NCBI GenBank assembly: GCA_017652545.1
Contig: JAGCAV010000035.1
Location: 1-29,361 of the forward strand
Direction: 5' to 3'
DNA: 29,361 nt
Source: Lachnospiraceae bacterium
GTDB taxonomy: Bacteria; Bacillota_A; Clostridia; Lachnospirales; Lachnospiraceae
The notes beneath the pieces are model-generated. The model was given only the letters and a program-made list of their open reading frames with translations, did no database searches and had not been told where the DNA came from. Below are positions 4,259-28,699 of the stretch, piece after piece. Position numbers and translations under genes: made by a program. Numbering within the stretch: position 1 is the stretch's first letter; every line of letters starts with the position of its first letter.

Positions 4259-5146
4259 ATGAAGCGTAAAGAAAAAGGAAAGAAAGCTGGAACCGGCAGG
4301 TTCAAGGCATTCCTGATCGATTTTTTATGTGACCTGACGGGCAGCATCTTTTTTGCCATGGGGATCTACACGTTTGCCAGGATGGCGAATTTCGCGCCGG
4401 GCGGTATTTCCGGCCTTGCGCTGATCGCCAATCATCTGTGGGACCTGCCGATCGGTGTCGTGACGATCCTCCTGAATATTCCGCTGGTGATCATCAGCTG
4501 GAGGGTCGTCGGAAAGGAATTCCTGCTGCGCACCGCGCGGACGATGATCATGACCACGGTCTTTCTGGATGTTGTATTTCCGCTGATACCGCCCTATTCC
4601 GGAATGCCGCTGCTTGCCTCCTTGTATTCCGGTGTATGTACGGGCGTCGGAATGGCCTTTTTCTATCTGAGAGGGAGCAGTTCGGGCGGAACGGATTTCC
4701 TGATCATGACCATTAAGGTGCGCCATCCCTATATGAGCTTCGGTTTTGTGACCATGACCCTGGATTTCCTTGTGATCATGCTTGGCTGGCCGGTCTTCGG
4801 AAATGTGGATGCCGTGCTCTACGGACTGATCTGTTCCTTTACGACTTCGATCGTGATGGATAAGATCCTGTACGGCATGGGTGCCGGAAAACTGGTCATT
4901 GTCATCACGAACAGGAGCAGTGAACTGGTCGAGAGGATCAGCCGCATGACAGGCAGAGGCTCCACGATGATCAGGGCGATCGGCACCTATACCGGTGAGG
5001 ACCGGGACGTCCTGCTCTGCGCCTGCAGCAAAGCGCAGACCTATTCCATTACGAACGCCGCACATGACGTGGACGAGAAGGCTTTTGTGATGGTGACGGA
5101 AACCAGCGAAGTGTTTGGTGAAGGGTTTATTGAGAGGAGAAAATGA
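4259..5146 (+). CDS. YitT-family membrane protein with C-terminal DUF2179 domain
   Basis: This is a 295-residue protein. Residues about 20-200 contain several hydrophobic segments interrupted by short loops; one region reads FARMANFAPGGISGLALIAN and a later loop YLRGSSSGGTDFLIM, both typical of the YitT (formerly DUF161) family. Residues about 220-290 form the soluble DUF2179 domain, with VIVITNRSSELVERI, RGSTMIRAIGTYTGEDRDVLLC and a VMVTETSEVFGEGF end. The biochemical role of the family is not established. It sits inside the cobalamin operon, 23 nt after cbiB, and its stop overlaps the cobD start by 4 nt, so it is very likely co-transcribed and translationally coupled. A role linked to cobalamin (for example transport) would be inference from position only. 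The family call is firm; function is unknown. Confidence 0.9.
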   Translation: MKRKEKGKKAGTGRFKAFLIDFLCDLTGSIFFAMGIYTFARMANFAPGGISGLALIANHLWDLPIGVVTILLNIPLVIISWRVVGKEFLLRTARTMIMTTVFLDVVFPLIPPYSGMPLLASLYSGVCTGVGMAFFYLRGSSSGGTDFLIMTIKVRHPYMSFGFVTMTLDFLVIMLGWPVFGNVDAVLYGLICSFTTSIVMDKILYGMGAGKLVIVITNRSSELVERISRMTGRGSTMIRAIGTYTGEDRDVLLCACSKAQTYSITNAAHDVDEKAFVMVTETSEVFGEGFIERRK

Positions 5147-26534: not shown

Positions 26535-28148
26535 ATGGCAGTACTTGATCTGACAAAGTATGGCATCACCGGCACCACTGAGATCGTCCACAATCCTTCA
26601 TGGGAGTTCCTGTATGAGGAAGAGATGAAGCCCGAACTGGAAGGCTTTGACAAGGGCGTTATGACGGAGCTTGGCGCTGTCAATGTCATGACCGGTATCT
26701 TCACCGGACGTTCCCCGAAAGACAAATACATCGTCATGGATGAGAACTCAAAGGACACCGTATGGTGGACAACCGATGAGTACAAGAACGACAACCATCC
26801 CATGAGCGAAGAAACCTGGGCTGTTGTGAAAGATCTTGCCAGGAAAGAGCTTTCCAACAAGAGGCTGTTTGTGGTTGACTGCTTCTGCGGTGCCAACAAG
26901 GATACCCGCATGGGCGTTCGCTTCATCGTTGAGGTTGCATGGCAGGCTCACTTCATCAAGAACATGTTCATCATCCCCACGGATGAAGAGCTTGAAGCTT
27001 TCGAGCCGGATTTCGTCTGCTACAACGCTTCCAAGGCTAAAGTCGACAATTACAAAGAGCTCGGCCTTAACTCTGAGACCGTGGCCGCTTTCAACATCAC
27101 CAGCCACGAGCAGGTTATCCTGAACACCTGGTACGGCGGCGAGATGAAGAAGGGCCTCTTCTCCATGATGAACTACTACCTGCCGCTGAAGGGCATTGCT
27201 TCCATGCACTGCTCCGCCAACACCGATATGAACGGCGAGAACACCGCCATCTTCTTCGGTCTGTCCGGCACCGGCAAGACCACTCTGTCCACCGATCCCA
27301 AGAGACTGCTGATCGGCGATGACGAGCACGGCTGGGATGACAACGGCGTGTTCAACTTCGAGGGCGGCTGCTATGCTAAGGTCATCAACCTCGACAAAGA
27401 GTCCGAGCCCGACATCTACAACGCCATCAGGAGAAACGCTCTGCTTGAGAACGTGACAGTCGATGAGAACGGCAAGATCGATTTCGCCGACAAGTCCGTC
27501 ACCGAGAACACCCGCGTTTCCTATCCGATCGAGTTCATCGACAAGATCGTCAAGAACGTGCGTCCGATCAGCGCAGGCCCCGCAGCCGACAATGTCATCT
27601 TCCTGTCAGCTGACGCCTTCGGTGTTCTTCCGCCCGTGTCCATCCTGACTCCGGAACAGACACAGTACTACTTCCTGTCCGGTTTCACAGCAAAACTGGC
27701 AGGCACCGAGCGCGGCATCACAGAGCCGACCCCGACCTTCTCCGCATGCTTCGGCCAGGCATTCCTGGAGCTGCATCCCACCAAGTACGGTGAGGAACTC
27801 GTTAAGAGAATGGAGAAATCCGGCGCCAAGGCATATCTGGTGAACACCGGCTGGAACGGATCCGGCAAGCGTATCTCCATCAAGGATACCCGCGGCATCA
27901 TCGACGCGATCCTGAATGGCGACGTGCTGAAAGCTCCGACCAAGATGATCCCGCTGTTCAACCTCGAGGTTCCGACAGAGCTTCCGGGTGTTGATCCCGC
28001 GATCCTTGATCCGCGTGACACCTATGCAAATCCTGCTGACTGGGATGAGAAGGCGAAGGATCTGGCAGGCCGCTTCATCAAGAACTTCAAGAAGTACGAA
28101 GGCAACGAAGCAGGCAAGGCCCTTGTCGCAGCAGGTCCGCAGCTTTAA
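26535..28148 (+). CDS. pckA: Phosphoenolpyruvate carboxykinase (ATP)
   Basis: This 537-residue cytosolic enzyme interconverts oxaloacetate plus ATP with phosphoenolpyruvate, CO2 and ADP. In anaerobic fermenters it often runs in the carboxylating direction. Family marks are [15 protein letters not shown] near 53-67, the P-loop [11 protein letters not shown] at 242-252, the metal-binding [10 protein letters not shown] at 259-268, and the C-terminal [16 protein letters not shown]. The length is typical of the ATP-dependent family, not the longer GTP-dependent one. Codon use is strongly biased (many ACC, AAC, ATC, TTC codons), suggesting high expression. ATG 26535 has GAGAGG upstream. Its 3' region holds an unusual array of hairpins before the terminator. 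Confidence 0.98.
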
Positions 28149-28227
28149 GAAGCAATAACTGCGTGAGCAGTTATTGGCAGACACCGCGAAGCGGTGGATG
28201 CACAGCTTCGTCAGAAGCTGGCTTCTT
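28147..28227 (+). other. Cloverleaf-like RNA/DNA fold starting at the pckA stop codon
   Basis: A 7-bp closing stem (AAGAAGC 28147-28153 with GCTTCTT 28221-28227) encloses three perfect hairpins. They are: 9 bp, 28154-28162 with 28167-28175, loop GTGA; 6 bp, 28182-28187 with 28191-28196, loop GAA; and 7 bp, 28203-28209 with 28214-28220, loop GTCA. The first and third hairpins abut the closing stem with no unpaired base, and the two linkers are each 6 nt. The closing stem overlaps the TAA stop (28146-28148). It is not a tRNA: arm and loop sizes do not fit. Function unknown. Confidence 0.6.
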
Positions 28228-28268
28228 TAACGAAAGAAAATGCGCAGCATTTTCTTGAGTGTAAGAAG
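28224..28268 (+). repeat. 45-bp direct repeat, copy A, with a 10-bp hairpin (loop GCA)
   Basis: It contains AAGAAAATGC (28234-28243), loop GCA and GCATTTTCTT (28247-28256), followed by GAGTGTAAGAAG. It matches copy B at 44 of 45 positions; the only difference is the middle base of the loop. Confidence 0.9.
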
Positions 28269-28288
28269 CGCAAGAGAAAAGCATAACA

Positions 28289-28325
28289 AAAGATGGTGGT
28301 AGCTCCGCAAGGAGCTGTCATCTTT
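28289..28325 (+). other. Extended hairpin with GCAA tetraloop in the pckA 3' region
   Basis: AGCTCC (28301-28306) and GGAGCT (28311-28316) pair around loop GCAA, a GNRA tetraloop. A perfect 7-bp outer stem, AAAGATG (28289-28295) with CATCTTT (28319-28325), closes it. Copy B of the direct repeat starts within the 3' side of this outer stem. Confidence 0.7.
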
Positions 28326-28365
28326 AACGAAAGAAAATGCGTAGCATTTTCTTGAGTGTAAGAAG
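28321..28365 (+). repeat. 45-bp direct repeat, copy B, with a 10-bp hairpin (loop GTA)
   Basis: AAGAAAATGC (28331-28340) pairs with GCATTTTCTT (28344-28353) around loop GTA. It lies 97 bp downstream of copy A. Confidence 0.9.
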
Positions 28366-28370
28366 TACAG

Positions 28371-28400
28371 GAAAATGCGCAGCATTTTCTTGAGTGTAAG
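28371..28400 (+). repeat. Partial direct repeat, copy C (30 bp), with an 8-bp hairpin (loop GCA)
   Basis: These 30 bases are identical to 28236-28265 of copy A, including the GAGTGTAAG tail. GAAAATGC (28371-28378) pairs with GCATTTTC (28382-28389). It ends just before the terminator stem. Confidence 0.9.
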
Positions 28401-28404
28401 TAAG

Positions 28405-28436
28405 AAAGAGACAGGATTTTCCTGTCTCTTTTTTTT
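28405..28436 (+). terminator. Intrinsic terminator of pckA
   Basis: AAAGAGACAGG (28405-28415) and CCTGTCTCTTT (28421-28431) form a perfect 11-bp stem, and the T run continues to 28436. It lies 256 nt after the pckA stop, so the whole hairpin array should be part of the pckA mRNA. Confidence 0.92.
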
Positions 28437-28504: not shown

Positions 28505-28699
28505 AGATTAAAAAGGCAATACCCCTGGGGTGTGCGATAACTCTCTTTATTTTGAACCTACATTTACTTAATGGGACTCCTATATAGTCGGCGGTAATGT
28601 CAGGCCCTCCTTCGAAGGGAAGACAGCGGCGCCCTCTGCGGACACCCACCTGGCTTCGGCTAGGCGTCAAAATTAGGGAACCGGCACTCTGGGGTTTTT
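28505..28699 (+). ncRNA. ssrS: 6S RNA
   Basis: This is a gene-free stretch of about 195 nt with its own promoter. The two ends can pair as a closing stem (CCCC 28522-28525 with GGGG 28691-28694, and GTGC 28532-28535 with GCAC 28684-28687), followed by TTTTT. The 5' central strand has TTTTGAACCTAC and the 3' strand has the small hairpin CCTGGC-TTCG-GCTAGG (28649-28664), as in Firmicute 6S RNAs. A terminal arm is formed by TGTC and CCCT with AGGG and GACA (28598-28625). 6S RNA binds sigma-A RNA polymerase holoenzyme and inhibits many promoters in stationary phase. The identity rests on recalled consensus and folding by eye, and the exact ends are approximate. Confidence 0.8.

Follow-up and report, generated by a model that had tools for sequence, protein, structure and literature searches.

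What is the array of hairpins that separates pckA of this Lachnospiraceae bacterium from its terminator, and in which form, RNA or single-stranded DNA, would it have been selected? The upstream gene of the array, pckA, encodes phosphoenolpyruvate carboxykinase (ATP) at 26535..28148 on the + strand (TIGR00224, E 3e-244) of the window, by which we mean the whole 29,361-nt stretch of DNA that was analysed. The array lies in the stretch 28149-28400, with the pckA stop (28148) on one side and, on the other, a probable pckA terminator formed by an inverted repeat and a T run (28402..28434, + strand; repeat I6, 15-nt arms, 93 per cent complementary) that a simple terminator scan missed.

Loop class and copy structure of the array

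The sequence-only reading had noted seven perfect hairpins here with loops that begin with G, end with A and are closed by a C-G pair, and all seven were located on the + strand: hairpin 1 (28153..28176, 10 bp stem, GTGA loop), hairpin 2 (28182..28196, 6 bp, GAA), hairpin 3 (28203..28220, 7 bp, GTCA), hairpin 4 (28234-28256, 10 bp, GCA), hairpin 5 (28301..28316, 6 bp, GCAA), hairpin 6 (28331-28353, 10 bp, GTA) and hairpin 7 (28371-28389, 8 bp, GCA). Hairpin 2 contains GCGAAGC at 28186-28192, just where it had been reported; d(GCGAAGC) is a GNA minihairpin with known loop chemistry. Three hairpins repeat a single one and belong to the same repeat family, a relationship that had also been recognised. 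A direct duplication (28204-28278 / 28301-28375, spanning 28204..28375 on the + strand; 85 per cent identity, spacing 97, repeat family D1) is followed by a third, partial copy lacking the 5' half of the core described below, which consists of hairpin 7 and a GAGTGTAAG tail (28371..28400, + strand; repeat family D2, 30 nt, 3 copies). The array had been taken to end at 28389, which is right for the hairpins and too short for the repeat, which continues to about 28400.

Loops of the form C(GNA)G or C(GNNA)G occur on the + strand in 7 of the 27 perfect tri- or tetraloop hairpins of the whole window (stem of at least 6, overlapping alternatives counted), all of them at 28153-28389, and on the - strand in none. 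Relaxing the stem to at least 5 adds one such hairpin (4290-4303, GGCA) within an ORF. The same reading had put the chance of each loop at about once in 16; the measured background is lower, at 44 of 1697 hairpins per strand, or 2.6 per cent, in 131 loci of related DNA (L001-L135 minus L112-L115). Counting the three related copies once leaves about five independent hairpins, and the chance of five such loops would be 0.026^5, about 1e-8 by our own arithmetic.

It might be supposed that these are ordinary terminator-like or slippage-made inverted repeats with a coincidental loop pattern, given that the array adjoins a terminator and that three of its hairpins duplicate one. We consider this very improbable, both from the background loop rate and from the lack of T runs: by eye no T run directly follows any stem, by which the array hairpins were rejected as intrinsic terminators, and the terminator scan inside the array returned weak, overlapping matches at 28203-28222 only. 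The frame, the covariation and the strand-specific loops described below recur across genomes, and for the family this reading is largely refuted.

A covarying core with internal mismatches

The lead to a conserved core came from a search with part of the array, which found locus L112 in genome G358, between mfd on one side and a lipoprotein gene resembling PPIase (by eye) on the other. The L112 array has four consecutive hairpins with the loop class of the pckA array, in the frame TAACGA-hairpin-GAGT. A pattern search and reading of the loci gave the frame of the core: an outer stem, a U.U mismatch, three pairs, GA opposite GA, and an inner hairpin, with the consensus CUUARYGA-[hairpin]-GARYUUAG, of which the window version is UUUAACGA-hairpin-GAGUGUAA. 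Core copy 1 of the window (28220..28271, + strand; 43.5 bits with covariance model R1, and seen in the fold) reads TTTAACGA-hairpin-GAGTGTAA, a variant of the consensus, encloses hairpin 4 and has the outer pairs GCTTCTT/AAGAAGC; it is one of the 18 sequences that seeded R1. Core copy 2 (28317..28368, + strand), which encloses hairpin 6, is outside the seed and scores 32.9 bits (E 2e-6; E-values from R1 are rough). Hairpins 1-3 have as an enclosing stem in the window only GAAG/CTTC, which the predicted fold does not choose; in L112 and L185, by contrast, the eye readily picks out a stem around the hairpins that precede the core.

By script, 40 core frames were found in 2.32 Mb, much of it loci fetched for holding the motif, versus 2 in the reversed sequences. 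The pattern search itself matched 90 of 299 genomes, a figure not taken as a prevalence because the background of the pattern is high and the reversed control also matches many. The covariance model and covariation check that had been suggested for these stems showed that the core helix covaries. In the seed alignment, free of any fitting to the model, 85.9 per cent of cells are paired versus 68.6 per cent after shuffling, with 40 double changes versus 13.1; among 95 distinct matches the values are 87.5 versus 68.4 per cent and 255 versus 73.9, and slid controls of these 95 rows reach at most 43.7 per cent paired and at most 55 double changes. Within this covarying helix the GA/GA, the U.U and the adjoining bases are invariant or nearly so.

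At gathering score, no Rfam 15 family matches the repeat: the window scan returns 6S only, a scan of 14 loci nothing beyond tRNA and rRNA, and a scan of the L315 array no match. The best weak match is CsrC (E 0.0046, 16.8 bits against a cut-off of 61). A kink-turn has a 3-nt bulge beside tandem GA pairs; the GA/GA of the core is flanked directly by C-G or U-A, and kink-turn identity was rejected because the bulge is absent.

The loop rule also holds beyond the window. In the 150-nt flanks of 127 cores outside it (37.9 kb, in which neighbouring tandem copies may share flank sequence), 18 C(GNA/GNNA)G hairpins lie on the core strand versus 3 on the opposite strand, against backgrounds of 0.061 and 0.066 per kb (1.9 Mb), an enrichment of about 8-fold beside cores that is confined to the core strand. 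The array's membership in a repeat family, which the sequence-only reading had entertained, is supported by the same enrichment around cores of other genomes. Within cores such loops occur in 9 of 27 perfect hairpins (stem of at least 5), and other loops, e.g. TTT, AAA, TGT and TAC, are common, so that on one strand the rule describes a tendency of the family. Together, core covariation and this one-strand enrichment support the proposal that selection acts on the structure of the array and its family.

Distribution and probable gain at pckA

Core model matches (E at most 0.01) were found in 33 of 37 chosen genomes, 31 of which had been chosen through an earlier pattern or DNA match to the motif; among those 31, G221 and G280 have no model match. 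The other six divide into G003, G008, G041 and G153, which match, and G119 and G192, which do not, with G003 and G008 chosen since L004 and L011 hold such hairpins. The highest copy number at this threshold is 31, in G281, with at most 150 candidates scored per genome. Among 14 genomes of the family selected for their long contigs, seven match (E at most 0.01), two of them (G191, G259) known carriers beforehand. In a class-wide sample 2 of 41 genomes match, G155 and G220, both of which are in the family sample too, and the other 39, scanned with stricter filters and given without their families, have no core match. A wider scan, with just 21 candidates scored per genome, matched 7 of 291 genomes, five within the family lists and two (G586, G676) of unstated family. 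Within the family, then, the repeat is common, and in the rest of the class as sampled it is rare or absent. A phage or plasmid origin found no support: BLAST with the array gave no match, and viral contigs lack the exact window-type motif. The exact class-A core pattern was seen in six viral-contig stretches (L383-L388; prophage or host flank).

The host is probably a member of Lachnospiraceae: most close pckA relatives carry that name or a related one, and HrcA is nearest to family-sample genomes around G003 (best G155, 81 per cent). Of the 20 nearest genomes, pckA was located in 17. None of the 17 orthologues has the array, though 2 of the 17 have a single GNA-type hairpin (stem of at least 5) within 360 nt, and R1, run at E up to 0.5 over 1.42 Mb, found no match in 80 further pckA loci (3' regions were viewed for 34 of the first 80, and the model scan took in all 80). 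Conservation behind pckA is therefore rejected for this locus, where the pattern would count as chance by a criterion of the sequence-only reading itself, a verdict that does not extend to the family. Because it is missing from all of these loci, the array was probably gained in the window's lineage; loss in other lineages instead is conceivable. In G155 a terminator-like hairpin begins about 15 nt past the pckA stop, and 6S RNA comes next. In the window, too, a 6S RNA (28519-28699; RF00013, 74.9 bits) lies directly beyond the pckA terminator, and pckA with a nearby downstream 6S RNA was also seen in L346, L348, L351 and L358.

Gene neighbours and strand of the core

Core sites include the spacers pgk-tpiA, rpsN-rpsH, rpsH-rplF and rpsM-rpsK. 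Upstream sense ORFs (n = 58) include PGK and S13 (4 each), S8 (3) and S14 (2), and downstream ORFs (n = 51, scanned of 60 found, with 9 short or doubtful ORFs omitted) include L6 (4), TIM (3) and L2, S8, S11 and L7/L12 (2 each); the remaining neighbours are of many kinds, with one or two each. These counts are not a random sample, because most loci were fetched for holding the motif. The pgk-tpiA spacer served as an unselected check: among 29 loci, drawn from 30 genomes close to that of the window, 6 carry a core (E at most 0.01; L315, L318, L320, L321, L323 and L338), and L317, L334 and perhaps L327 hold, by eye, cut-off core halves; the other pgk-tpiA spacers of the 29 show no core. The L315 and L318 spacers hold two units in direct orientation (117 and 119 nt), with two hairpins apiece, and end in a copy cut off near the loop. 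By eye, tandem arrays ending in a copy cut off near the apical loop were noted in L315, L318, L189 and L193.

It is possible that the repeat is an mRNA site bound by a regulator of its own, a protein or a small RNA, which would control how messages for ribosomal proteins and glycolysis are translated or decay. The GA/GA, the U.U and the bases beside them, all invariant or nearly so within a covarying helix, are consistent with such a contact, as is the recurrence in r-protein and pgk-tpiA spacers. The binding partner would be a hypothetical one, most of the 29 pgk-tpiA spacers lack a core and many copies adjoin unrelated genes, and we consider this reading unlikely.

Orientation was counted with each tandem copy entered, genes called by a simple ORF rule and classes assigned by script. 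Between co-directional genes, operon-type cores (A1 and 'other') are 27 sense to 4 antisense and window-type cores 8 to 1, and the palindromic subtypes A2/A3, at 10 to 12, have no bias. Over the first 99 matches of all classes, minus 15 with an ORF across the core, the count is 33 sense to 11 antisense. Several loci carry further arrangements of the core. Upstream of a 16S rRNA gene, and antisense to it, two cores lie within 100 nt (L155:315-400). L166-L173 (G074) are, by eye, near-palindromic core-bearing elements of ~190 nt with near-identical long inverted ends at several sites, MITE-like in form. In L194, L195, L198 and L199 the outermost stems of palindromic copies vary by site, as if set into existing palindromes (by eye).

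Selected form: RNA or single-stranded DNA

The + strand of the array folds as RNA at -113.2 kcal/mol (z -10.5), beating every shuffle, and with the terminator included at -134 (z -12.7); with DNA parameters the same strand has z -11.7. The antisense RNA fold is weaker and still unusual (-89.4, z -9.7), so that sense stability exceeds antisense by 24 kcal/mol. An excess of G.U in the core helix, sought as a sign of RNA selection, was absent (26 G.U versus 42 A.C, 18 of the A.C-type cells being C.A from one pair), as was a preference for GNRA (5 GNRA versus 4 GNYA) among loops of the C(GNA/GNNA)G class, which comprise 28 triloops versus 9 tetraloops. We would have predicted both for an element under purely RNA-level selection.

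These same counts speak for single-stranded DNA or for neither form, and would suit a selfish or replication-linked repeat that is selected as folded single-stranded DNA, in which a hypothetical copying or moving enzyme would recognise GNA minihairpins and sheared GA pairs and the position in transcripts would be incidental. Presence and absence at orthologous sites, tandem units that end in cut-off copies (by eye), and palindromic subtypes without sense bias, such as the ~190-nt element of G074 (by eye), point the same way. In G191, 6 of 7 copies with clear GC skew are, by our own reading, on the strand opposite to leading, a replication-strand reading that is partial only because the sampled GC skew flips sign more than twice. 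The sense bias of operon-type and window-type cores weighs against this alternative, but sense and replication strand mostly coincide. The Y1 transposase counts given below weigh against it as well, and we judge it possible though somewhat improbable. Coding strand in L363-L382 (G191) tracks the multi-flip GC skew, as in a rearranged or misassembled chromosome.

The sense bias in operons, the better fold of the sense strand and the place in translation and glycolysis operons speak for RNA, and the evidence as a whole points both ways.

Relation to known repeat systems

In its place and palindromic build the family resembles REP/BIME. Passages of PMC2817692 describe REP as having a 5' GT(A/G)G head adjoining the palindrome, and REP/BIME associated with RAYT (TnpA_REP) as short, multicopy intergenic palindromes in composite or tandem groups. 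The present family lacks the head found in RAYT-associated REP: GTRG lies near the 5' edge of 15 of 127 cores and near the 3' edge of 4 of 127. REP also has a linked cognate Y1 transposase flanked by the repeat, whereas here 12 of 28 carrier genomes lack PF01797 and a scan of 30 Y1 loci (87.9 kb, part of the Y1 matches) found no core, so that mobilisation by Y1/RAYT is not supported. REP usually exceeds 100 copies per genome, compared with the 31 reached here with at most 150 candidates scored per genome; BIME palindromes alternate in orientation, whereas the tandem units of L315 and L318 are direct in those two loci; and the conserved internal GA/GA and U.U mismatches are unlike REP/BIME.

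Passages of PMC1590033 present ERIC and NEMIS as transcribed intergenic repeats with stems that are possible ribonuclease targets, and, set side by side by description only, the family shares with them the form of a putatively transcribed intergenic stem-loop repeat in different hosts. The G074 copies, as one ~190-nt element with long inverted ends (by eye), are MITE-like, whereas window-type and operon-type copies have no common inverted ends. GNA minihairpins of the d(GCGAAGC) type, like GNRA tetraloops, share the C-G-closed loop class and are structural motifs, not a genomic repeat family. A literature search, mostly open-access in coverage, found no earlier description of the family, although one may exist, and we take these structured repeats to be a new REP/BIME-like family with a putative function.

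Proposed function of the repeat

The repeat probably acts in mRNA 3' regions. Our leading explanation, on which we stand evenly balanced, is that the array represents a dispersed Lachnospiraceae structured repeat, duplicated locally, that was gained between the pckA stop and the terminator and would stabilise the upstream mRNA. The transcribed sense strand would fold into a chain of compact hairpins, which may hinder 3'-5' exonucleases or set a processing boundary, and the upstream message would persist, be it pckA or, in operons, pgk, rpsH, rpsM and others. The repeat itself would multiply through DNA-level duplication and insertion by some agent. We cite in support of the mRNA reading the covariation, the cognate array in L112, the operon neighbours, the sense bias, the 18-to-3 loop count, the pgk-tpiA check (6/29) and the sense stability; counted against it are the missing G.U excess and GNRA preference, the unbiased palindromic subtypes, the pckA site that is not conserved, and the many cores with other loops.

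A more specific version, which we advance tentatively and with clearly less confidence, is a Lachnospiraceae-specific structural code in which the GA/GA and U.U core with its GNA-capped hairpins would be read on one strand by a hypothetical dedicated factor, would mark highly expressed transcripts (those for ribosomal proteins, glycolysis and pckA) at their intercistronic and 3' ends, and would spread without RAYT. The structured repeat family described here lies beyond every Rfam model, in a major gut-bacterial family and often in ribosomal-protein and glycolytic operons. With it, Lachnospiraceae would gain a counterpart of REP/BIME without the known transposase, and R1 offers a defined covariance model for asking on which of the two, RNA or single-stranded DNA, selection acts.
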